64,000 nucleotides of DNA from Psychrobium sp. MM17-31. GTDB taxonomy: Bacteria > Pseudomonadota > Gammaproteobacteria > Enterobacterales > Psychrobiaceae. Below, in pieces: positions 48,537 to 64,000 of the stretch (position 1 is the stretch's first letter; every line of letters starts with the position of its first letter). The notes beneath the pieces are model-generated. The model saw nothing but the letters and a program-made list of their open reading frames with translations, was not told the origin of the DNA and did no database searches. Both the position numbers and the translations under genes were made by a program. Location: positions 62,001 through 126,000 of the forward strand of contig NZ_JAKRGA010000004.1 of assembly GCF_022347785.1 (NCBI RefSeq), in the 5' to 3' direction.

Positions 48537-48578
48537 AAATGCAATCAATTATCATTCTCGGTAGTTGATTGCATTTTT
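48537..48578. terminator. Terminator after the RND operon, with an embedded Fur-like site
   Basis: AAATGCAATCAA (48537-48548) pairs perfectly with TTGATTGCATTT (48565-48576), followed by Ts. The 16-base loop plus the stem edge carries a Fur-like pattern. The stem ends 12 bp before the GTG of the ECF sigma gene, so it could also act as an attenuator on that gene. Confidence 0.8.
48548..48559. promoter_or_regulatory. Fur-like site upstream of the ECF sigma gene
   Basis: On the minus strand this reads GAGAATGATAAT, two Fur hexamers matching GATAAT at 11 of 12 positions. FecI-type sigma genes are commonly Fur-repressed, which supports the reading; binding itself is inferred. Confidence 0.45.
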
Positions 48579-48590
48579 ATTTAGTATTCG

Positions 48591-49094
48591 GTGAACAAAA
48601 ACTCTTCCAACACTCAAGCTTATCTTAGTCATCGCGATGCATTAGTAAATTATGCCACGCCAATTACTGGTTGCCGTGCGCGGGCAGAAGACATCGTTCA
48701 AGAAGCATTTTTGAAAGTGATTCCTCACGAATCAACTCAGAAAAATGCTATTGCTTACCTATACCGCACCGTTAGAAATCTAGCGATTGATATGGTCAGG
48801 CGCTCTGTGATGGAAGATAAGCATCAAGATGCTGAGAAAATTAGTTGGCTCGAACCAACCAGTAGTAGTGATCCAGAACAAATGAACTCGCAACGCGACG
48901 AGTTACAATCCATCGCACAGGCTATCGCTGCGTTGCCAAATTCTGAGCGCCGTGCTATCGAAATGCATCGCTTGAACGGTCAAAGTATGGCTGAGATAGC
49001 CCAAGAACTGGGCGTATCAATTGCAACAGTTCATCGCCTTATCCGTAGTGCTCTTGCAACAATTAGTGGCGCTTTAGACGAGTCTACGTCATGA
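48591..49094 (+). CDS. ECF RNA polymerase sigma factor, FecI type
   Basis: A 167-residue group-4 sigma factor. Region 2 is seen in RAEDIVQEAFLKV and AYLYRTVRNLAIDMVRR; region 4 in IAALPNSERRAIEMHRLNGQSMAEIAQELGVSIATVHRLIRSAL. The start is GTG at 48591, the only in-frame choice after the upstream stop; the ribosome site is weak. It is followed by a FecR-type regulator and a TonB-dependent receptor with a signalling domain, the standard cell-surface signalling layout, so it should direct transcription of the receptor (and probably the lipoprotein) gene when the receptor binds its ligand. Confidence 0.93.
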   Translation: MNKNSSNTQAYLSHRDALVNYATPITGCRARAEDIVQEAFLKVIPHESTQKNAIAYLYRTVRNLAIDMVRRSVMEDKHQDAEKISWLEPTSSSDPEQMNSQRDELQSIAQAIAALPNSERRAIEMHRLNGQSMAEIAQELGVSIATVHRLIRSALATISGALDESTS

Positions 49095-49140
49095 TATTTA
49101 CTCTTGCTTTTTCAACTGCCAATTTTTCAATAGCGTATCT

Positions 49141-50103
49141 ATGAGTGACTTAACAAACAACAATCAACATTGTGATCGTGTAATTCGCCGTCAAGCGGCG
49201 GACTGGTTGCTTATTATTGAAGGCGACGCTAATGACGAACAATTCCATCAGTGGAATGATTGGCTACAGCAGTCTGAGCGTCATCAAGAAATTTGGCAGC
49301 AAACTTATAGATCATGGCAATTGATGGCGAAGTTGTCCCTTGATGATGTTCAGGCGGCAGAGCCTACGACGACTAAACCGCCTAAAATCCGTCGCTTGGC
49401 ATGGACGACATTTGCAATAGCGGCGAGCTTTTTAGTCGCCGTTTTATCACCATCATTGATACTTTATTGGCAAGCCGATGAAATGACCACAACTGCACAA
49501 ACCCGTTTAATTACATTAAGTGATGGCAGCCAAGTGACGTTAGGAGCTAATAGTGCTATTGCAGTGAATTATTCTGAACAGCAACGGGCAATTACCTTGT
49601 TAAAAGGGCAAGCATTTTTTGATGTAAGCCATAATAAGCAGCGCCCATTTATTGTGACGACTCCCCAAGCTAACGTTGAAGTTTTGGGCACCCAGTTTGA
49701 TGTTGAAGCGCTTTCTAGTCATGCTTATGTCGCGGTTGCCAGCGGTTCTGTTGGCGTGACGAACAATCTACAGTTGGAAAAAATACTGTCACCGGGTGAT
49801 CTAATGAGCGTAGCTAATGATGGAGTTATGGCTAAACTTCATGTGCCAGTAGAGCAAATTGCTCCTTGGCGCGAGCAGCGTTTATTTGTGCAAAGCCGAA
49901 CAATAGCAGACGTTGTTGATACGGTGCGTCGATATTATGACGGCATTATTATCGTTACCAATGATACTCTCAAAACTAAGCGTGTGACAGGCTCTTATCA
50001 GCTGTCTCAGATAGACAATGTGCTCGATGCTGTAGTACTGCCACATGGCGGTAAAGTGACAAAAGTCGGTCCGATGATCAGAGTTATTTCATTATCTAAA
50101 TAG
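49141..50103 (+). CDS. FecR-type anti-sigma regulator
   Basis: A 320-residue single-span inner-membrane regulator that binds the adjacent sigma factor. The N-terminal cytoplasmic part has the FecR-N pattern QAADWLLIIEGDANDEQFHQWNDWLQQSERHQEIWQ with its Trp residues; one helix (about 83-107) follows, then the periplasmic FecR domain (LITLSDGSQVTLGANSAIAVNY, LLKGQAFFDVSHNKQRPFIVTTPQANVEVLGTQFDVE) and a C-terminal region that should contact the receptor's STN domain. It follows the sigma gene after 46 bp. Confidence 0.94.
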   Translation: MSDLTNNNQHCDRVIRRQAADWLLIIEGDANDEQFHQWNDWLQQSERHQEIWQQTYRSWQLMAKLSLDDVQAAEPTTTKPPKIRRLAWTTFAIAASFLVAVLSPSLILYWQADEMTTTAQTRLITLSDGSQVTLGANSAIAVNYSEQQRAITLLKGQAFFDVSHNKQRPFIVTTPQANVEVLGTQFDVEALSSHAYVAVASGSVGVTNNLQLEKILSPGDLMSVANDGVMAKLHVPVEQIAPWREQRLFVQSRTIADVVDTVRRYYDGIIIVTNDTLKTKRVTGSYQLSQIDNVLDAVVLPHGGKVTKVGPMIRVISLSK

Positions 50104-50137
50104 TTTTTCTTAAAAAAGTATCTCTTTTTGAGAAAAA
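50104..50137. terminator. A/T-rich stem-loop between fecR-type gene and receptor gene
   Basis: TTTTTCTTAAAAAAG (50104-50118) can pair with CTTTTTGAGAAAAA (50124-50137), with one wobble and one bulged A, around a 5-base loop. It begins at the FecR stop and may stop part of the sigma/anti-sigma transcript, leaving the receptor to its own promoter in the next 65 bp. The stem is weak in G-C pairs. Confidence 0.4.
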
Positions 50138-50202
50138 AATTAATCCGCCAATCGTTTATATCCTAAACACGAATTATTCGTATTAAATTTAGGGGGTAGT
50201 TG

Positions 50203-52887
50203 ATGATTGGTGTATTAACCAGATTGCGTTGTATTTTTCTGGTGATAATGTTTTGCGGTGCTTCAGTGGTTGCCAGCTCTGTTGAAGCCGTCACATTACA
50301 GTTTGATATTCCCGCGCAGTCTTTGCCTAGTGCACTGGATCAATTTTCTCGTCAAAGTGGTTATCAGGTTTCTTCAGCCAGCGGCGTGTTAGAGCGCAAA
50401 ACTTCTCGTGCGATCAAAGGGCAATACAGCATTGAACAGGCTATTACGCTGATCCTTAACAATCAATCGCTCGATTGGTTCATTAGCGGCACCAATATCC
50501 TTATTACGGCTAGAACCAATGGCGGTGTTAGTAGCACCGTATTACCAACGGTAAAGGTGCAAGGCAGCTCCGTCAATCGCGCTTCTGAGCGTGTGTATGA
50601 GGCAGCTGCCTCACAATCTCATATTACTCAAAAGGAAATTCAACGCACTCGCGGCTCTTCGGTGGGGGATATTTTTCAAAGCGAAAGCGGTGTTTTAGTT
50701 GGCGAAAACCGCAATTCAGGCGGACTCGACGTTAATATTCGTGGCATGCAGGGGCAAGGACGAGTGCCTGTTTTGCTCGACGGTAGCCGTCAAGAAACTA
50801 CGGTTTATCGCGGATATGCTGGGGTGGCTAGTCGTACTTATATTGACCCCGATCTCATTGGCGGTATTGATATTCACAAAGGCCCTGAATTATCTGCTCA
50901 AGGTAGCGGTGCTACTGGTGGCGTGGTTAGCGTTAGAACATTAGACGCTAGCGACCTCATTGCAGGTGACGGCGATTTTGGTGGTCGAGTTAGAATGGGC
51001 CTGATGGGAAACACGACTAACGGAGCAGTCGCTCCGGGCACTGAATCAGGGTTTAATCCTGTTGGTGGTGATAATGGTGCCTATCGGATTAATTGCAGTT
51101 CACCGTCGTTGTGTGAAGGCCCTTATGACATTAACAAGGCCTTTGGTTCGCCAGATACACTAGATCGTCCGGATTTACTTGCCTTGAAAAGCTGGTCGGC
51201 GAATATCGCTTTTGCTAAACGATTTGAAAAAGTCGATCTCATTCTTGCTTACGCTGAACGCGAGCAGGGCAATTATTATTCTGGCAGTGATGGGCCTGCA
51301 CCAACGTTAGATATTTCAAATCAAATCAATCGCGGTTTTTGGACTGAAGTGCGTCCTGAGCTGACCGGAGTTAGTCGCTTTCGCGCCGAGGAGATGATTG
51401 CTAACAGCAATTATCAAAGTCAATCTAGCTTGGTAAAAGGACAGTTTTATCTCAATGACTATCAGACATTAAAGTTAGGTTGGCAAAGCTACGACAGTAC
51501 TTACGGTGAGCTAATGCCTTCACAACTTGTTTGGTTTGGGCAAGTGCGTCAGACGCCTGGCAGTACGGTTAAGGCCAATACTTACACCTTGCGCTATAAC
51601 CATCAATCTGAGGCCAGTGATTGGTTAGATTTAGAAGCCAATATATGGAAAACAGACACCCAAAGTACTAACCACAGTTATAGCGCAGATATTAGCGGTG
51701 GTTTGGCTGAAACTGAAGATTATCAGCGATGGGGTGGAGACTTTACTAATACCAATCGCGGTGACACTTGGCGCGTGTCATATGGTGTGTCTTGGCAAGA
51801 AGAAAAAATCGATACAAAACCAATTGAAGGCAATGCCACTGCGTTTGGTCGTGACGGTACGCGCAGTGAATATGGTGCTTTCATCAATGTTAATTGGCAA
51901 CCTATTCCTACAGTTAATATCAATACTGGGCTTCGTTATACTCGTTTTGACGTGCTTGACAATAAGCCTGTTGTCGTTAGTGAAGGCAGTGAGTTTTGTC
52001 AGATAATTGCTGGAACACAAGAGTGTCAGACATTACGTAATGAGAACGATTATTCTGGTAGCGCACCAGTGCTAAGTATGGCGTGGCAGGTTAGTGATAC
52101 GTGGCAATTGTATGCACGCCATTCTCAAGCCTTAAGAATGCCGAGTTTATTCGAAAGCTCAGCGGGATTCTCTACCCAGCCTGCGTTAGATGTCACATTA
52201 AAGCCTGAACATGCCAAAAATAATGAAATTGGACTCAACGGTATCAAGGACAATTGGTTAATTGCAGACGATCGTTTTCGCATTAAATTCGCTTACTTTA
52301 GAAATCGCACCGATGATTATTTAACGCGCACCTCGCCCAACCTTTGGGAAGATGAGTCTACGCGTATTTTCTTTGTTACACGTAACATTGACAGCGTTAA
52401 GTTTTATGGCAGTGAATTGAGCGCAGAATATGACGCAGGGCGCTTCTATGTCAAAGTTGGCGCGACGCATTATCACTTTATCGAAGTGTGCCATTACGGC
52501 AGTTTTCGCCGTGAACGTTGCAATGACTACGGCATCGCTAATTCGTATATCAATAACATGATCCCACCAAATCAGCACGCTAATGCAACTATTGCGGGAC
52601 GGTGGTTGGATAAAACATTGGAGATTGGTACGCGTTTGACCTGGATGGGTAAGCGCAACGAAGTCCCTGAATTCGACGATCAAACCCAACAAGGGCGTTT
52701 ACAGCCAATTGCTTGGCACAGTTATCAGCTCATCAACCTATTCGCTAGTTATAGCTGGAATAAACAACTCGATATCGATTTGAACATCGATAACCTTACT
52801 GACAAATATTATTTAGACGCACTGAGTCTCGGCTTAGTGCCTGCTCCAGGGCGGACAATGCGTCTTAATTTTACCTATCGCTTTTAA
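50203..52887 (+). CDS. TonB-dependent receptor with N-terminal signalling (STN) domain, copy 1
   Basis: An 894-residue outer-membrane transducer. The ATG at 50203 has AGGGGG six bases upstream (the TTG at 50200 is ignored). Signal peptide about 1-30; STN domain about 31-108 (LQFDIPAQSLPSALDQFSRQSGYQV); plug about 135-270 (SSVGDIFQSESGVLV, NIRGMQGQGRVPVLLDGSR, YIDPDLIGGIDIHKGP, GATGGVVSVRTL); then a 22-strand barrel ending in APGRTMRLNFTYRF. The FRAP-like site is ALRMPSLFES, without the His typical of heme receptors. Three Cys pairs (NCSSPSLC, CQIIAGTQEC, CHYGSFRRERC) probably form extracellular disulfides. Closely resembles the copy at 61488. The ligand is unknown. Confidence 0.93.
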   Translation: MIGVLTRLRCIFLVIMFCGASVVASSVEAVTLQFDIPAQSLPSALDQFSRQSGYQVSSASGVLERKTSRAIKGQYSIEQAITLILNNQSLDWFISGTNILITARTNGGVSSTVLPTVKVQGSSVNRASERVYEAAASQSHITQKEIQRTRGSSVGDIFQSESGVLVGENRNSGGLDVNIRGMQGQGRVPVLLDGSRQETTVYRGYAGVASRTYIDPDLIGGIDIHKGPELSAQGSGATGGVVSVRTLDASDLIAGDGDFGGRVRMGLMGNTTNGAVAPGTESGFNPVGGDNGAYRINCSSPSLCEGPYDINKAFGSPDTLDRPDLLALKSWSANIAFAKRFEKVDLILAYAEREQGNYYSGSDGPAPTLDISNQINRGFWTEVRPELTGVSRFRAEEMIANSNYQSQSSLVKGQFYLNDYQTLKLGWQSYDSTYGELMPSQLVWFGQVRQTPGSTVKANTYTLRYNHQSEASDWLDLEANIWKTDTQSTNHSYSADISGGLAETEDYQRWGGDFTNTNRGDTWRVSYGVSWQEEKIDTKPIEGNATAFGRDGTRSEYGAFINVNWQPIPTVNINTGLRYTRFDVLDNKPVVVSEGSEFCQIIAGTQECQTLRNENDYSGSAPVLSMAWQVSDTWQLYARHSQALRMPSLFESSAGFSTQPALDVTLKPEHAKNNEIGLNGIKDNWLIADDRFRIKFAYFRNRTDDYLTRTSPNLWEDESTRIFFVTRNIDSVKFYGSELSAEYDAGRFYVKVGATHYHFIEVCHYGSFRRERCNDYGIANSYINNMIPPNQHANATIAGRWLDKTLEIGTRLTWMGKRNEVPEFDDQTQQGRLQPIAWHSYQLINLFASYSWNKQLDIDLNIDNLTDKYYLDALSLGLVPAPGRTMRLNFTYRF

Positions 52888-52908
52888 ATTAATAACAGGA
52901 ACTCAATA

Positions 52909-55476
52909 ATGAAAAAATGCGTTAATCCATTTGCATTGACCGTTGCCAGTTCACTCGTCCTGATGCTGACGGGATGTGGTGGTTCAAGTGACACTAAAGT
53001 GACTCTGCCGCCGATGGCTGTTGCGCTTATTTCTCAAGACAAAGTTAATATCAATGAGAGTGTCAACCTTGATGGAACTCAAAGTATTTCGCCAAATGCA
53101 GGTGTAAGTCAGTGGACTTGGATGGTGGACTCTGCACCTGCTGATAGCATTGCTAAACCAGCTGAAAATGCGCAATCTACCACGTTCACTGCCGATAAAA
53201 TTGGTGATTACACCTTGTGTTTAACGGTACAAGATGATCAGAAAAGTAGTGCGCCAAATTGTCAGCAGTTAACGGCGGTTAATCCTAATCCAACGGCAGT
53301 TTCTTTAGCTGAAATGGGTTCTAGTGTGGGTGATCAGGTGCAATTAGATGCCAGTAACAGTTTGCCACCAACAGAAGGCGATGCCAGTGCATTATCTTAT
53401 CAATGGAAATTGATTAAAAAGCCAGAAGACAGTGCTGCTGAGCTCGACGATGCTGGATATGTTAAACCGCGTTTAACTACCGATATTGAAGGTGATTACG
53501 AACTAGAGTTGGTTGTTAGTTATCTCGATAAGGTTAGTCCCGCGATTAATGTCGTGATACGCGCCTCGGCGTTAAATGCTATTCCAAATCCAGAATTTAC
53601 TATCACTGGTGGCGATGCGGACGGCTGGGTATTGGGAGATACCGTCACCTTAGATGCGAGCGCGACAGTCGATGCGGATGGTGATGAACTCGAGTATCGC
53701 TGGTTCTTGGGATCTGCTGAGCGTCCTTTCGTGCCAGATGGCTCAAGCGCAACATTAGATAAGCACACCGGTAAAGTAGTGACATTTACCCCTGATAAAT
53801 TTGGTCAGTTTAGCGTTGAGCTAGCGGTATATGACGGCACTATTCGTAAAACAGTAAACAAGCGTATTGAGGTCAATCAGTTAGCGAGCGATCACGTTAA
53901 CAATAAGCCAATGGCAAAAGTGGGCGCTAACTTTACAACTGGCACCTATGAAGTTGAGCTAGCGGATACCCTGCAATTATGGGCATTTGATAGTGTCGAT
54001 ATTGAGACAGGTAATCCTTATTACATGATGTATGAATGGGAACTATTGTCCTACCCTGATGGTTTTGACCCTGCGACAGCTGATTTAGCAAATCCATTTG
54101 CGCCATCACTATCTATGCCTGTTGCTGGTGATTATACTCTGCAGCTTCGCGCTAATGATGGCGTTGAGTGGAGTGAGCCAGTAACTGGAACTTTTACTGC
54201 GCTTGTCGGTGCCAATCGCAAACCTACTGCTTCAGCTAAACTCGCCGGTGCAGGGAATGCAGCACTAATCGGTCAAACTATTACATTTGATGGTGGCGAG
54301 AGTAAAGATCCTGACGACAATGAGCTGACGTACCACTGGACACTAATCGATAAGCCAAATGGTAGTACTGCAGAATTAAAAGATGCTAACAAAGTGACAC
54401 CGTCGCTAGTGGCTGATAAAGCTGGTGCTTATGTTGTTGAAATGCATGTCACCGATAGTCATGGCGCAAGCAGTGTCGGTGGCTTTGCTGGACCACAACG
54501 TGTTTTAGCTATGGCAAAAGCAGAAAATAACTTGCCTATTATACGTCCGCAATTAGAGCGTGAGTTTTCTGATGAACAACCACTAGTTGTCTATCCTGTT
54601 ACTGATTTGGTGTTCGATGCTGACACGGGTAATTTTGATCGACGCTCGCTTAATTCATCGGTTGTCGTAAGTAGTGATGCGTTCGATCCTGATGGTGATC
54701 CATTGAGCTACTTATGGCACTTAAAAGAATCACCAGAAAGTAGTGAATTGGTGCTTCCGGCTAGTATTGCAGGTTTTGGTTATAGCCATAGTCTATGTAT
54801 GAATGGACGTCGTGTAACAAGTGATGGTGAATACAAAACCAATAAAGAGTTATTTGAAGGCGTATTAGCGATGCGTGAGTGGACTTGTCAAAATATCGGT
54901 TTTGCACCGTCTATAGCAGGAGACTATGTCGTGTCGTTACAGGTATCTGATGGCATTGAGACTACCGAGGCTGTAGAGTTTGCTATACCAGCCGTTGCAC
55001 CTGCGGATTATCCTACATTGCTACTCGAAGACTTACATGACTCTGTAGTTTTGGGTCTTGATGGTTTACGCCGCCAAGCAGGCATGTCACATCGTCAGAA
55101 GTTGTTCCCATATAACGTAGCAGAAAAGAGTAACTTCCCGATCTTTAATTCGTACCTTAATGCTAATGGGGATACTTTAGCAAAACGTTTTACGTTAACT
55201 GCATTTGATCAAGATTACACTATTACTAACTTGAAAGCGGTTTCGCAAGATGACTTTACCGCTAGCTTTAAAGGGCTCGAAGATGGTCAAGTGATTAAGC
55301 AAGGTGAGTCTGTGACTTTCGATTTAATTATTACCTCGCCAACTGATGTAACAGTTAATCAATTTGACTCTACCAATGCCGGTGAAGAATTACATTGGTC
55401 GTTTGAGATTGCACAGCGCCCTAACTGGACATTCGATTACTCACCTTATATTTACGCGTCTCGCGCTAGCGAATAG
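52909..55476 (+). CDS. Large PKD-repeat lipoprotein, receptor partner, copy 1
   Basis: An 855-residue lipoprotein: signal with lipobox LTGC (Cys23), then GGSS, with no Asp at +2, so outer membrane. About six PKD/Ig-like repeats follow, starting near residues 34, 128, 226, 333, 438 and 575, with recurring phrases such as NINESVNLDGTQS, GDTVTLDAS, DGDELEYRW and GDYTLQLRANDG. A C-terminal module (about 765-855) with FDQDYTITNL and EDGQVIKQGE recurs in the lipoprotein at 59056. It starts 21 bp after the receptor gene, so the two are co-expressed. Inferred role: a surface-exposed or periplasmic partner that captures or presents the receptor's ligand. No enzyme motif is seen. Confidence 0.88.
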   Translation: MKKCVNPFALTVASSLVLMLTGCGGSSDTKVTLPPMAVALISQDKVNINESVNLDGTQSISPNAGVSQWTWMVDSAPADSIAKPAENAQSTTFTADKIGDYTLCLTVQDDQKSSAPNCQQLTAVNPNPTAVSLAEMGSSVGDQVQLDASNSLPPTEGDASALSYQWKLIKKPEDSAAELDDAGYVKPRLTTDIEGDYELELVVSYLDKVSPAINVVIRASALNAIPNPEFTITGGDADGWVLGDTVTLDASATVDADGDELEYRWFLGSAERPFVPDGSSATLDKHTGKVVTFTPDKFGQFSVELAVYDGTIRKTVNKRIEVNQLASDHVNNKPMAKVGANFTTGTYEVELADTLQLWAFDSVDIETGNPYYMMYEWELLSYPDGFDPATADLANPFAPSLSMPVAGDYTLQLRANDGVEWSEPVTGTFTALVGANRKPTASAKLAGAGNAALIGQTITFDGGESKDPDDNELTYHWTLIDKPNGSTAELKDANKVTPSLVADKAGAYVVEMHVTDSHGASSVGGFAGPQRVLAMAKAENNLPIIRPQLEREFSDEQPLVVYPVTDLVFDADTGNFDRRSLNSSVVVSSDAFDPDGDPLSYLWHLKESPESSELVLPASIAGFGYSHSLCMNGRRVTSDGEYKTNKELFEGVLAMREWTCQNIGFAPSIAGDYVVSLQVSDGIETTEAVEFAIPAVAPADYPTLLLEDLHDSVVLGLDGLRRQAGMSHRQKLFPYNVAEKSNFPIFNSYLNANGDTLAKRFTLTAFDQDYTITNLKAVSQDDFTASFKGLEDGQVIKQGESVTFDLIITSPTDVTVNQFDSTNAGEELHWSFEIAQRPNWTFDYSPYIYASRASE

Positions 55477-55506: not shown

Positions 55507-55536
55507 AAAAGAGACGTCCGAGACGTCTCTTTTTTT
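55507..55536. terminator. Strong rho-independent terminator after PKD lipoprotein copy 1
   Basis: AAAAGAGACGTC (55507-55518), loop CGA, GACGTCTCTTTT onward (55522-55533) and a further T run. It closes the sigma-receptor-lipoprotein cluster; its edge abuts the stop of the convergent agmatinase-like gene. Confidence 0.92.
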
Positions 55537-59055: not shown

Positions 59056-61473
59056 TTATTTGATTTGACCAGCAGTACATTGTTCCCATTTACTGAAGCT
59101 GCTGTTGCTAGCACCTAACCAGTTTTCGTACACGAAAGTAATCTCTGGGATTTCTTTAATGTTGAATGAGAAGTGGAAGCCTTCGCCGCGCTCTTCGGTT
59201 CTTACACAAGGAATAGCTCGCATCCATGTTTTGAACTCAAGCGTTTCCCCTTTCTTAATGACTTGGCCTTCTTCAAGGTTTTCGAAACGTGGTGTTAAAT
59301 CATCTAAACCGCCGTTAATGTGGCTAACTTTGACGTTTTCGATGGTGTAATCACCGTCTACGGCTTCAAGTGCCCATGCTATAGCGCTGTCTTCTTCGAT
59401 TGGACGAGTTGCTGGACTAAATACATTTCCATAAGGTGGTTTATTTTCGTATGGAAGTGGGTGCCATAAGTCACCGCTTGAGCTAACGTTGCGCAGACGT
59501 ACGCCTTTGGCGTCTTCAAAGCTATCTACTTTTACAACGAAATCGTATGGGTCGGCGTCGTCAATTAAGTCAGTCGCGTAGTAACGGAAGGTGTATTCTC
59601 CTGGTTTGGTAAATACCTTACCACGAGTGTTAGCACAGGAATCGTCGCTTGGTGAGCTAGTAAATTCGCCGCCTTCTGGCTTTTTGATTAATTCATTTTC
59701 AGTGTGCTCGAAAATATCGATTTCATCGCCATCAGAGTCAACGACTACTGGGCGGTGTAATAACGACATACAAGGAAGAATTTGGTAGTAGTTTTCCCCT
59801 GGATTCAAACGGCCCCAGTTACGCGCCCAAACTACTGAGCGAATTTCTGGTTTAGTGTTCGAGGTTTTTGCAAAGCCAGTATCTTGTTCGTAAGACTTAG
59901 CGCGTAGACCGCGATCATCTTCAACGATTAGGCGTGCCGTGTAAGAACCTGGAACGTCAGTTTTCACAACAGCTCGGCGTAGCTCGCCACTTTCTGGCTC
60001 AATAACTGGTGTGATAACTGCTTTACTACCGTCTGGTTTATCGGCTAATTCCCAGTGGAAAGTCATAGGATCGCCGTTACGATCACTGCTTGATGCGTCA
60101 AACACTAGGTCTTCACCAACAAGCACTGATTGGGCCTTCACATCGACACTTCGGGTTGATGGTTGTGAGTTAACTTGGCCGATAAGTGCTTGCATATTGG
60201 CTTCGGCGGTAATTTGGTTGACGCCATCTGAGATAGTCATGCGTACACTGTATTTACCGACAACGTCAAGTTTTTGAATTTTCTTACCAAGTGGTTTCCA
60301 GCTACCGATGTTAACGAGTTCTACAGTACTATCAGCAGGCTTTTCAATTAGCTCAGCACTAACGATTTGTAGCGGTTCACCTTCTGGATCGTAACCAACA
60401 AAGTTAAACTCAGCGCGACGACCAACTTCTTGTTCGCCAACACTGTATGAAGGGAAGTAGCCCGTTGCTTCGATTTTACCAACTGGTGGTTGGTTAGTTG
60501 TTACCGCAGGATCTTTTTCTACGGTGATAGTCACTTCTTTATCTTCGCTCTTACGTTCGCCGTCAAACACAAAGAACTTAAGTTTGTATTCACCCGCAGC
60601 CACAGGTGTGAAGCGCACTGTATCTGTTTTAGTGTCGAATAATTCTGGTACTGGTACACCACGCGGATCGACTGGAGAGTAAGACCAAGACCAGCGGTAC
60701 TGCAACGATTCGCCTTCTGGATCGCTACTTGCACTGCCATCAATAACTACTTCTTTACCAAGTGTTACTGTCATATCTTCGGCTTTAGCCATCGGTTGTG
60801 CGTTACCCGAAGCTACTTTAACAGTGACTTCAACAGGTTTACTGCTGGTGTCTTCGAACTTAACAACTAGCTCAAGTTTGTATTCACCTTCTAGATCTAG
60901 GTTAATGCTCGCCTGTGCTTCATTGCTATTACTAATGTAACCCGCACTGTCAGCTGGCTTTTCTTTTAGCGTCCATTGGTAAACAAGGTCACCTGATTTA
61001 CCTGTTGGTAAAGTACTCTTACTCGCGTCTAAACCGACGTTTTCAGTACCTAGTGTTACGCTGTAGTTGGTTTCTGAGTGAGCTACTGGATATGGGCTAG
61101 TCGCAGTGATTGTCATGCGCTTAGCTTCACTTTGCTGTTTGCCGTCATTGACGATTAGGCTTACAACATAGTCACCAGCGAGATCGGCAGTAAAGTCTGT
61201 TGTTTTCTCGTCGGTATTCGCTAGCTCGGCCATGCTCAGATCTGGACGAGAAATCATTTGCCACGCGTAAGTTAAGTTAGCATCACGCGGTGTAGTACTT
61301 GTACTGGCGTCAAGATTAACTTTTACGTTGCCATCTTTAAGAGAAAATGTGCTCTCTGTCGGTGCTGACATTGCAAATGCCGCTGTGGGTTTCTTTGGCG
61401 TGCTGCTGCCACCACAAGCGGTGAGCATGAGCGACAAGCCTATCGTGGCCAAGAGGCCAAGCGTTCGTTTCAT
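59056..61473 (-). CDS. Large PKD-repeat lipoprotein, receptor partner, copy 2
   Basis: An 805-residue lipoprotein: signal with lipobox LTAC (Cys20), followed by GGSS, hence outer-membrane sorting expected. About five or six PKD-like repeats (VNLDASTSTTPRDANLTYAW, VIDGSASSDPEGESLQYRW, LVFDASSSDRNGDPMTFHWEL) and a C-terminal module (about 700-780) with DGDYTIENVKV and EEGQVIKKGE that parallels copy 1. Four cysteines lie in the C-terminal third, in a pattern unlike a catalytic site. It begins 14 bp after receptor copy 2. Function inferred as an accessory ligand-capturing component; PKD repeats alone can also serve as spacers. Confidence 0.88.
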   Translation of the reverse strand: MKRTLGLLATIGLSLMLTACGGSSTPKKPTAAFAMSAPTESTFSLKDGNVKVNLDASTSTTPRDANLTYAWQMISRPDLSMAELANTDEKTTDFTADLAGDYVVSLIVNDGKQQSEAKRMTITATSPYPVAHSETNYSVTLGTENVGLDASKSTLPTGKSGDLVYQWTLKEKPADSAGYISNSNEAQASINLDLEGEYKLELVVKFEDTSSKPVEVTVKVASGNAQPMAKAEDMTVTLGKEVVIDGSASSDPEGESLQYRWSWSYSPVDPRGVPVPELFDTKTDTVRFTPVAAGEYKLKFFVFDGERKSEDKEVTITVEKDPAVTTNQPPVGKIEATGYFPSYSVGEQEVGRRAEFNFVGYDPEGEPLQIVSAELIEKPADSTVELVNIGSWKPLGKKIQKLDVVGKYSVRMTISDGVNQITAEANMQALIGQVNSQPSTRSVDVKAQSVLVGEDLVFDASSSDRNGDPMTFHWELADKPDGSKAVITPVIEPESGELRRAVVKTDVPGSYTARLIVEDDRGLRAKSYEQDTGFAKTSNTKPEIRSVVWARNWGRLNPGENYYQILPCMSLLHRPVVVDSDGDEIDIFEHTENELIKKPEGGEFTSSPSDDSCANTRGKVFTKPGEYTFRYYATDLIDDADPYDFVVKVDSFEDAKGVRLRNVSSSGDLWHPLPYENKPPYGNVFSPATRPIEEDSAIAWALEAVDGDYTIENVKVSHINGGLDDLTPRFENLEEGQVIKKGETLEFKTWMRAIPCVRTEERGEGFHFSFNIKEIPEITFVYENWLGASNSSFSKWEQCTAGQIK

Positions 61474-61487
61474 TAGTTATTCTCCAG

Positions 61488-64000
61488 TTAAAATTGAAGG
61501 TTTAAGCCAAGGCGTGCAGTTCTGCCGGGGGCAGGTACTAGACCAAGGCTTAAAGCGTCGATGTAATAGCGATCTGTGACATTGTCGACAGTGAAATCGA
61601 TTGTTATGTCGTCGCTGAATTTGTATTTAGCGTATAGGTCGAGTAAGCGATAACTCTCCCATAGCACCGGGGGATTAAAGCCTGTGTTTGCGTTGTAACG
61701 CGGCACTGAATTACGTTTACCGATGAAGGTTGCACGTGTGCCAAACTCGAGTTTTTGGTTGAGTAATCGGCCACCCAAGTGCAGCGTTGCCTGCCATTGT
61801 GGCGGGATCATATTGTTGATATAGCTGTGCTCAATGCCCCAATCTGTACACGCGAAACGCACCTCGGTGCCGTTGTGACATACTTCTATCAAGTTGTATT
61901 TGGTGCCTTTGAATTCGATGAGCCATTTGGTGGCGTCGTAGCTGACATCTAATTCAATACCTTCAAGATCTAAGCTTTCGATGTTGCGCAAACGGAAGAA
62001 ATCGAATCCTTGTTGGCGCTCTTCCCATGCATTACGGCGGGTGCGAGTGATGTAGTCGTCAACGTGATTGTCAAAATAGGCTAATTTTGCGCGCAATTGA
62101 TGCTGGTTATTAAATAGTGATTTATCGACATAACTGATGCCAATTTCATTATTTTTTGCGTGCTCGGGATTAATAGGGATATCGAGAGCAGGGCTTACTG
62201 ACCAGCCGGATGTGCTTTCGAATAGACTCGGCATGCGCAGCGCCTGAGCGTGACGTAAATACATCATGATTTTGTCAGTTGGTTGCCATGTAATTGCAAC
62301 TAATGGTGCACTACCCGAATGATCGTTTTTGTAGTTTACTGGCAAACATCCGTCGTTACCGTCTGATACGCAGGCTGGATCGCTGGTTTCCAATGGCAAC
62401 GGATTGCTGTCTTTCGATTCAAATTTGCTGTATCGGATCCCTGCATCTAGCGTCCACTGTGGCATAAACTGCCACTTTAACGCACTAAATGCGCTAAATT
62501 CGCGACGCCAGCCCTTACGTGAGCCCGCGTAAAACCCTTCGGCTTCTGGCGTGTCTGTATCCATATCTTCCCATTGACCTGAAATGCCGTAATTTAAAGT
62601 CATATCACCCCATTGGAAGAAGCGCATACTATTGGTGATGTCGATACCCCAGCGCTGGTAATTATCTTGACGTTTAGTGTTATCTTCTAAATCGACCGAA
62701 CCGACTCCCGGTGTGTTTAACACAGTCGTTGCGTCGGTATGCCAAAGGTTTGCACGTAAATCAGCCCAATCGTATTCGACAGGTTGCCAACGATAGCGGG
62801 CGGTGTAAGTTTTGTTGAGAACTTCACTGTCTAGCCACTGTCTGGCTTGCCCAAAGCGCAAAATTTGCGATGGCATCATCTCACCGTAAGCACTGTCATA
62901 ACGGATATGGCTTAACTCAACACTTTGATCTTGTGGTAGGAAATAACTGCCTTTTAGCAGCAGTGATTCACTGGAAAAATTGGTATTGGGAATGCGCTCT
63001 GCGCCGCGAAAACGCGAAATGTATTCTAGCTTGACGGGGGTATCTGTTTTCCACGGGAAGACCTGAGGTTCGCCAATGGTTAATTCTGGCGTAGTGCCTT
63101 TGGTGCCCGAGTAATAATTGCCTTGCTCGCGTTTGGCATAGGCGACAACGATATCGCCCCAATCGAAACGCTTGCCGCCCGCTAAGCTGGCTGCATAACT
63201 ATTGAAATTAAACAGTCCGGGCCTATCCATACCTTCTTCTGGTGCAAAATGCTCAGGCATTTTTGTGCGCTCAGGGCAGCGCGATGCAAAGCGACAATCG
63301 GAGAAGTAAACGGCTGATGAAACAATGCGCGCCGACTCTTTGTCGATACGTGTAGATCCATTTGGAATGTAGTAGCCAGCGTAAGTCCCTGCCGCTGGCG
63401 TTGATGATGTGTTGCCAACGCCAGAGACACGCATTCTAAAACCGGATAATTCTCCTTGTTTTACAATATCTTCGATGCCAAGCGTATTAACGCTCACCAT
63501 ACCGCCTGTAGCACCAGTGCCTTGAGCAACCATAGCAGGCCCTTTGACAATTTGTAAGTTGCCTATTAAATCGGGATCGATATAGCTGCGACTCGATACA
63601 CCTGCATAGCCGCGGTACACCGTGGTTTCTTGACGACTGCCATCGATCAGAACAGGTACACGCCCTTGACCTTGCATGCCGCGAATATTGACATCGAGCC
63701 CGCCCGAGTTGCGGTTTTCACTGATTATTACACCCGGAGTGCCTTGGAAAATATCCCCCACCGATGTGCCACGAAAACGCTCAATAGTCTCTTGGGTAAT
63801 GACATTGACAGAAGCTGACTCGCGGTAGGTTTTATCTTTGAGTTTAGCGCGCTGGCTTTCAACGGTGATGGTATTGAGCGTTGTACCGTCGCCATTGCCG
63901 CCAGCTAGTGACTTCTTTTTGATTAGCCATGCGTTATCGGTCACTTTAATTGGCATTAAATCGGTATTCTGCAACAGAGTGAATAACACTATATCGGCGC
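61488..64000 (-). CDS. TonB-dependent receptor with STN domain, copy 2 (5' end outside window)
   Basis: At least 837 codons; the frame stays open to the right edge, so the signal peptide and most of the STN domain are missing. The STN end is visible (FTLLQNTDLMPIKVTDNAWLIKK). The plug and barrel closely resemble copy 1: GTSVGDIFQGTPGVII, NIRGMQGQGRVPVLIDGSR, YIDPDLIGNLQIVKGP, LRMPSLFES, PEHAKNNEIG and the ending DALSLGLVPAPGRTARLGLNLQF. The same three Cys pairs recur (CRFASRC, CVSDGNDGC, CHNGTEVRFAC), indicating a common loop architecture. Loop sequences differ, so the ligand may differ. A sigma/anti-sigma pair would be expected just beyond the edge. Confidence 0.92.
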   Translation of the reverse strand, partial: ADIVLFTLLQNTDLMPIKVTDNAWLIKKKSLAGGNGDGTTLNTITVESQRAKLKDKTYRESASVNVITQETIERFRGTSVGDIFQGTPGVIISENRNSGGLDVNIRGMQGQGRVPVLIDGSRQETTVYRGYAGVSSRSYIDPDLIGNLQIVKGPAMVAQGTGATGGMVSVNTLGIEDIVKQGELSGFRMRVSGVGNTSSTPAAGTYAGYYIPNGSTRIDKESARIVSSAVYFSDCRFASRCPERTKMPEHFAPEEGMDRPGLFNFNSYAASLAGGKRFDWGDIVVAYAKREQGNYYSGTKGTTPELTIGEPQVFPWKTDTPVKLEYISRFRGAERIPNTNFSSESLLLKGSYFLPQDQSVELSHIRYDSAYGEMMPSQILRFGQARQWLDSEVLNKTYTARYRWQPVEYDWADLRANLWHTDATTVLNTPGVGSVDLEDNTKRQDNYQRWGIDITNSMRFFQWGDMTLNYGISGQWEDMDTDTPEAEGFYAGSRKGWRREFSAFSALKWQFMPQWTLDAGIRYSKFESKDSNPLPLETSDPACVSDGNDGCLPVNYKNDHSGSAPLVAITWQPTDKIMMYLRHAQALRMPSLFESTSGWSVSPALDIPINPEHAKNNEIGISYVDKSLFNNQHQLRAKLAYFDNHVDDYITRTRRNAWEERQQGFDFFRLRNIESLDLEGIELDVSYDATKWLIEFKGTKYNLIEVCHNGTEVRFACTDWGIEHSYINNMIPPQWQATLHLGGRLLNQKLEFGTRATFIGKRNSVPRYNANTGFNPPVLWESYRLLDLYAKYKFSDDITIDFTVDNVTDRYYIDALSLGLVPAPGRTARLGLNLQF

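Follow-up and report, generated by a model that had tools for sequence, protein, structure and literature searches.

The window analysed here is a 64,000-nucleotide stretch of contig 4 in the 4.17-Mb genome of Psychrobium sp. MM17-31, and the subject is an operon at 48591-55476 in which genes of a cell-surface signalling system precede those of a TonB-dependent receptor and a large lipoprotein with PKD domains. Reading frames and domain matches bear out all four genes, in the order and on the strand that the original prediction, made from this DNA alone, had given them. The first encodes a FecI-type extracytoplasmic function (ECF) sigma factor (48591-49094, + strand, GTG start, Sigma70_r2 and r4_2 domains) and the second a FecR-type sigma regulator (49141-50103, +), which carries DUF4880, FecR and FecR_C and, as its translation shows, a single hydrophobic stretch. 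There follow a HasR/HphR-like receptor with an STN signalling domain (50200-52887, +), assigned from sequence, domains and a structural model, and the PKD-array lipoprotein (52909-55476, +), which has K319L-like PKD and PKD_4 stretches and an LTGC lipobox with Gly at +2. The receptor frame was listed with a TTG start at 50200, the ATG at 50203 being likelier; 21 bp separate its stop from the lipoprotein ATG, which is preceded by AGGA. We term this operon module A and a second, convergent set at 59056-64226 module B, recA and recB being their receptors, and designate receptors or loci with and without a PKD lipoprotein as lip+ and lip-. L numbers denote sequence loci and G numbers genomes, G000 being that of Psychrobium sp. 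MM17-31 itself. With FecI-type sigma and FecR-type regulator genes 5' of the receptor, module A has the gene make-up of a FecIR-type cell-surface signalling system. The STN domain of recA scores 23.7 bits alone, under the Pfam threshold of 28.4, and 28.7 bits with the neighbouring domains in the frame, and the receptor N-terminus aligns with those of FpvA, FecA and HasR in phmmer.

The inclusion of a large lipoprotein in such a unit had been called unusual, a view that finds no support in comparison with relatives: the lipoprotein is a constant of one receptor clade. Scanning a single genome for each species yielded 70 named loci. Where the receptor shares 42% identity or more with recA, a divide picked after the data were seen, a PKD lipoprotein gene lies directly downstream in 37 of 38 loci, and in the one that remains the contig stops 201 bp past the receptor. 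Of these 38 loci, 36 have the sigma gene and 37 the FecR gene upstream in the same orientation, L088 with divergent sigma and FecR genes being counted as absent and the sigma gene of L095 having been missed by tblastn. Where receptor identity is 30-36%, the lipoprotein is missing from all 32 loci, 24 of which possess sigma and FecR genes. The 38 loci include several per genome as well as near-copies (L111-L113; L095, L096 and L110), and L108, L109 and L148 appear identical to G004, G001 and G014. Receptor-lipoprotein gaps in the 37 loci span 11-134 bp (those of L094 and L118 are uncertain), and the pairing with one receptor clade is unbroken across gamma- and betaproteobacteria. In the receptor tree the 39 lip+ rows form one side of a branch with support 100; L118, L146, L150 and L153, whose frames are frameshifted or fused, were left out of the tree and the residue counts, and L066 out of the residue counts. 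Receptor and lipoprotein distances correlate with r 0.90 over 39 pairs, against a maximum of 0.17 in 2000 permutations, a coefficient that owes part of its height to linkage and shared ancestry and for which the L094 lipoprotein start used (905 aa) is probably wrong. Between module A and Marinobacter the lipoproteins share 44% identity and the receptors 54%, the lipoprotein being the faster to diverge.

The structural model of the module A lipoprotein (predicted local distance difference test score, pLDDT, 84.5) is a chain of PKD/Ig-type beads followed by a C-terminal region. A fold search with it returns generic PKD/Ig arrays, such as the PKD domain of ColG at Z 12.4, mainly over residues 31-434. 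The conserved C-terminal region, residues 700-855 (55006-55473, +), has no Pfam match; a PDB sequence search with the C-terminal part reached a best E value of only 0.014, topped by PKD stretches of the collagenase ColH, and a PADLOC search with the lipoprotein gave no match. From an alignment of 30 lipoproteins (A3: 28 of the 37 from named loci, L094 excluded, plus those of modules A and B; the companion receptor alignment A4 holds 26 of the 70 named-locus receptors plus recA and recB, 28 in all) we built a profile of this region, and its 50 matches among 8532 frames each fall on a receptor-linked PKD lipoprotein. Among the matches are two 450-aa lipoproteins from L065 and single ones from L071 and L072, which sit between another HphR-like receptor and HphA-Slam-like genes (HphA and Slam were Pfam-checked for L065 only).

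That the receptor is HasR-like, as originally predicted, holds both by sequence, HasR being its best solved relative (E 4e-47), and by predicted structure. The recA model (pLDDT 81.4) matches HasR at Z 41.6 and 40.6, with root-mean-square deviations of 2.6-2.9 over 608-664 aligned residues, ahead of ChuA at Z 36.4, and both recA (317.4 bits) and the in-window part of recB (332.8 bits) pass the TIGR01785 heme/hemoglobin receptor cut-off of 316.85. In HasR the axial heme ligands are His189 in the plug and His603 in a loop. Tyr206 of recA (codon 50815-50817, +) aligns with His189, a position occupied by Tyr in every one of the 39 lip+ rows and in all but one of the 33 lip- rows. Two cysteine-bounded insertions are typical of lip+ receptors, most other receptors being without them: residues 291-309 (51070-51126, +; Cys299/Cys305) and residues 600-609 (51997-52026, +; Cys600/Cys609), which map in the 22-stranded model to extracellular loops 1 and 6. 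Their position on the outside of the modelled barrel suggests that the lipoprotein docks on the receptor outside the cell. Residue 787 (52558-52560), in extracellular loop 9 of the model, is Met in all 39 lip+ receptors and His in 21 of 33 others, possibly an exchange of heme ligand. A separate variation is seen in alphaproteobacterial relatives (L119, L122, L127, L138, L143, L144, L149 and L151), whose receptors of about 1170-1220 aa extend some 300 residues past the usual barrel end.

Heme had been judged unsupported as the ligand on the ground that recA lacks the typical His between an altered FRAP-like site and its LKPE site. The residues are as described, with LRMP at 645-648, LKPE at 667-670 and no His between, and yet the argument fails, because receptors encoded beside hemophilin/Slam or heme oxygenase genes lack the same His, the absence of which thus says nothing against heme. 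No His lies between the FRAP-like and NPNL-like sites in the hemophilin/Slam-linked receptors of L094, L126, L135 and L147, and the same His is lacking in the heme-oxygenase-linked receptors of L087, L116, L132, L133, L136 and L141 (L087 and L116 do have a His, which immediately precedes LKPE and is not at the customary place on the FRAP side). Heme oxygenase matches occur in the flanks of 17 of 38 lip+ loci and 16 of 32 others (33/70, counts that include seven query loci or duplicates thereof). Pfam-confirmed heme oxygenase genes lie immediately 3' of the receptor in L132, L133, L136 and L141, and immediately 3' of the lipoprotein in L087 (Comamonas testosteroni) and L116 (Corticibacter populi). 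In the Psychrobium metagenome-assembled genome G004 the sole heme oxygenase found follows tonB, beside the ortholog of module B; no heme oxygenase lies beside module B in the present genome. Genes for HphA (hemophilin) and/or Slam are downstream in 11 of 38 lip+ loci. When six proteins at the hemophilin position were checked with Pfam, those of L094, L097 and L118 passed the HphA cut-off, that of L106 fell narrowly under it, that of L096 had a sub-threshold TbpB_B_D match alone and that of L104 had no match.

The original prediction further held that receptor and lipoprotein form one unit under control of the sigma factor; co-expression gains support from the comparison, and both genes would be transcribed by the module's own sigma factor. 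Co-expression is supported by a conserved promoter motif, the 21-bp gap, a hairpin after the lipoprotein and the invariant gene order. The putative sigma-dependent promoter, GAAAAAAATT-N10-TCGTT (50132-50156, +), is located within the 50104-50202 gap ahead of recA and recurs with the same 25-nt length at Alcanivorax L094 and Marinobacter L129, that is, in 3 of 62 upstream regions against a shuffle mean of 0.005. The pattern AAAAAAWTTN{8,11}TCGTT has a single match in the whole genome, the site before recA. Ahead of recB stands TTACGG-N15-TCGGC or a close variant, found in 12 of 60 named-locus upstream regions and 13 of 62 regions overall (dinucleotide-shuffle mean 0.085), constantly 26 nt long though the pattern permitted 24-28; it matches the -35 sequence TTTACGGGTTT proposed for HasI in Serratia (PMC9249621). 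The strict A and B patterns have one genome match each, before their own receptors, and the reversed control patterns 3 and 1; all patterns were written after inspection of the sequences, the HasI sequence being an independent check for module B alone. A terminator-like hairpin at 55507-55533, scored on the - strand with a T run also 3' on the + strand, closes operon A; the same hairpin scan finds none within the 21-bp gap, and weaker ones inside genes, including one at 52848-52866 near the recA gene end. Ahead of the sigma gene a Fur-box-like site (48541-48559, -; 13/19 against the consensus) lies inside a terminator-like stem-loop (48537-48576) 3' of an upstream RND operon, and it is weak on its own because 17 of 420 150-bp window tiles score at least 13. 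In the Alcaligenaceae relative L086 the best Fur-like site 5' of sigma reaches 18/19.

Two-part receptors with a surface lipoprotein are familiar from TbpA/TbpB, BtuB/BtuG and SusC/SusD. Module A resembles them in pairing a TonB-dependent receptor with a lipoprotein, but differs in the PKD array with its own C-terminal domain and in that the surface position is here putative. To the Serratia HasI-HasS-HasR-HasA system it is likened by signalling order, by HasR as closest solved structure and by the HasI-like -35 sequence before recB; unlike that system, module A is without an adjoining hemophore gene, has Tyr at the His189 position, lacks the loop His and adds a lipoprotein. In the hemO locus of Acinetobacter baumannii an ECF sigma and an anti-sigma gene are followed by hphR, hphA, hsmA, a gene related to tonB and one for heme oxygenase (PMC10483418); the hemophore HphA is secreted and is received by HphR (PMC8560813). 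Module A and hemO are alike in uniting an ECF sigma factor, an anti-sigma factor and a TonB-dependent receptor within a single locus, and receptors related to recA in L147, L135 and L126 have HphA and Slam neighbours, whereas module A has a PKD lipoprotein directly 3' of the receptor and no HphA, Slam or heme oxygenase was found. Its regulators and receptor fit hemO but the hemophilin, Slam and oxygenase searches come back empty, and module A is therefore a variant, not a member, of the hemO/HphR hemophilin system, a likeness resting on locus make-up and related receptors. The same gene order, compared by gene table alone, appears in Kerstersia gyiorum SWMUKG01, whose fecI-fecR-fecA-'PKD domain protein' clusters PROKKA_00721-00724 and 02782-02785 are tabulated without comment in the part of that paper available (PMC6461280). 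Beyond this table the partnership is undescribed in the literature searched; the hemophilin surveys PMC11332172 and PMC11332152, outside the search scope, may mention it.

On balance we favour, with somewhat better than even confidence, a reading of module A as a hemO/HphR-like operon for sensing and taking up heme or heme proteins, in which the PKD lipoprotein would be the surface partner of the receptor. Gene order, domains, conserved motifs, the coupling throughout the clade and the heme-related neighbours in relatives are seen directly in sequence; from them we infer heme as ligand here, surface exposure, docking and the order of signalling events. Iron shortage would act via Fur to increase sigma and FecR; ligand bound by the receptor outside the cell would cause the STN domain to signal to FecR, freeing the sigma factor, which would then transcribe receptor and lipoprotein from the promoter at 50132-50156. 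The lipoprotein may form a long outer-membrane surface partner docked on the receptor, probably through its C-terminal domain and the lip+-specific loop insertions, and help to capture the heme carrier; it adjoins a secreted hemophilin in some relatives and would operate here without a recognised one. More tentatively, and a little short of even confidence, we propose that PKD lipoproteins with this C-terminal domain constitute a class of surface co-receptor not yet described, serving HasR/HphR-type receptors, with which they would signal and transport jointly, and aiding or replacing secreted hemophilin in taking heme proteins from the surroundings. If so, a lipoprotein annotated as 'hypothetical' or 'PKD domain protein' invariably accompanies the heme-type receptors of a large clade in marine and soil bacteria and once on a plasmid, heme-protein capture can run without a recognised secreted hemophore, and the receptor-lipoprotein interface becomes testable, with two cysteine-bounded extracellular loops on one side and a single C-terminal domain on the other.

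Several findings weigh against this reading. Because the genome lacks a recognised hemophilin, Slam and heme oxygenase, heme is here something we infer rather than demonstrate: the genome has no match to PF01126, PF06228 or PF10615 (HemS-type and IsdG-type enzymes were not searched for), none to HphA_C in a search that matched G343 and G009, and none to Slam in a search whose control was empty, though PF04575 matches the Slam of L064, L065 and L073. Neither HasR heme-ligand position is His in recA, and the lipoprotein shows no heme site of its own, as its alignment holds no conserved His. A Sphingomonas plasmid PKD protein (L163:8197-9486) carries the same C-terminal domain with no adjoining receptor, and the distance correlation is partly a product of linkage, as said above. 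The lack of a recognised heme oxygenase, HutX, HugZ-type DUF2470, hemophilin or Slam, together with the absent ligand His positions and the His-to-Met change at 787 in the lip+ clade, would suit a ligand other than heme, be it a siderophore, a different metal complex or a protein without heme. The signalling operon and the two-part receptor would be as in the favoured reading, but the receptor would have drifted away from heme once hemophore and oxygenase were lost. We regard this as unlikely: the operons of close lip+ relatives contain a gene for heme oxygenase or hemophilin, lip- relatives adjoining such genes lack the loop His too, and the searches cover only part of the heme-degrading enzymes.

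The place and role of the lipoprotein invite two further accounts. It might face the periplasm, where it would space receptor, FecR and peptidoglycan or help them to signal instead of serving as a surface co-receptor, an arrangement compatible with the empty Slam search and with the lipobox, in which Gly at +2 tells of sorting to the outer membrane and says nothing of the side; we consider this rather unlikely, given that both lip+-specific receptor insertions lie in extracellular loops of the model and that the lipoprotein diverges faster than the receptor. Very unlikely, in our estimation, is that the lipoprotein serves as an adhesin or binds polymers at the surface, co-expressed with the receptor but without a direct role in uptake. 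Adhesins and carbohydrate-binding proteins often contain PKD/Ig bead arrays, and the structure matches of the lipoprotein are to generic arrays of this type, but neither its unbroken pairing with one receptor clade nor a C-terminal domain confined, with one exception seen, to receptor-linked lipoproteins is what such a role would lead one to expect.

Module B, absent from the original prediction, is a second lipoprotein-receptor pair with FecR and sigma genes upstream, and runs on the - strand. Its PKD lipoprotein gene (59056-61473, -; frame and domain matches) lies next to recB (61488-64000 in the window, continuing to about 64226; L004:3489-6227, -). Beyond the window are the genes for FecR (L004:6309-7292) and sigma (L004:7300-7815) and, next to the latter, a divergent exbB-exbD-tonB operon (L004:7980-10236). 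The two receptors are 44% identical and the two lipoproteins 27% by gapped BLAST (28-33% in multiple alignments). In the receptor tree recA groups with receptors of Marinobacter, Alcanivorax and Catenovulum (supports 87-91) and recB with those of Pseudoalteromonas, Endozoicomonas and other Psychrobium-group members (support 100). Neither module is thus a recent local copy of the other, and tandem duplication in place is rejected on the 44% receptor identity and the separate subclades. Paired modules also occur elsewhere, two in tandem in Alcanivorax sp. 24 (L099) and two about 14 kb apart in Corticibacter populi (L104/L116), and a Saccharospirillaceae bacterium (L114) has a second sigma-FecR-receptor set downstream. 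A complete B-type module, including ExbB-ExbD-TonB, is carried by plasmid pPsKG3_1 of the cheese-rind isolate Pseudoalteromonas sp. KG3 (L164), where the lipoprotein is annotated as 'hypothetical protein'.

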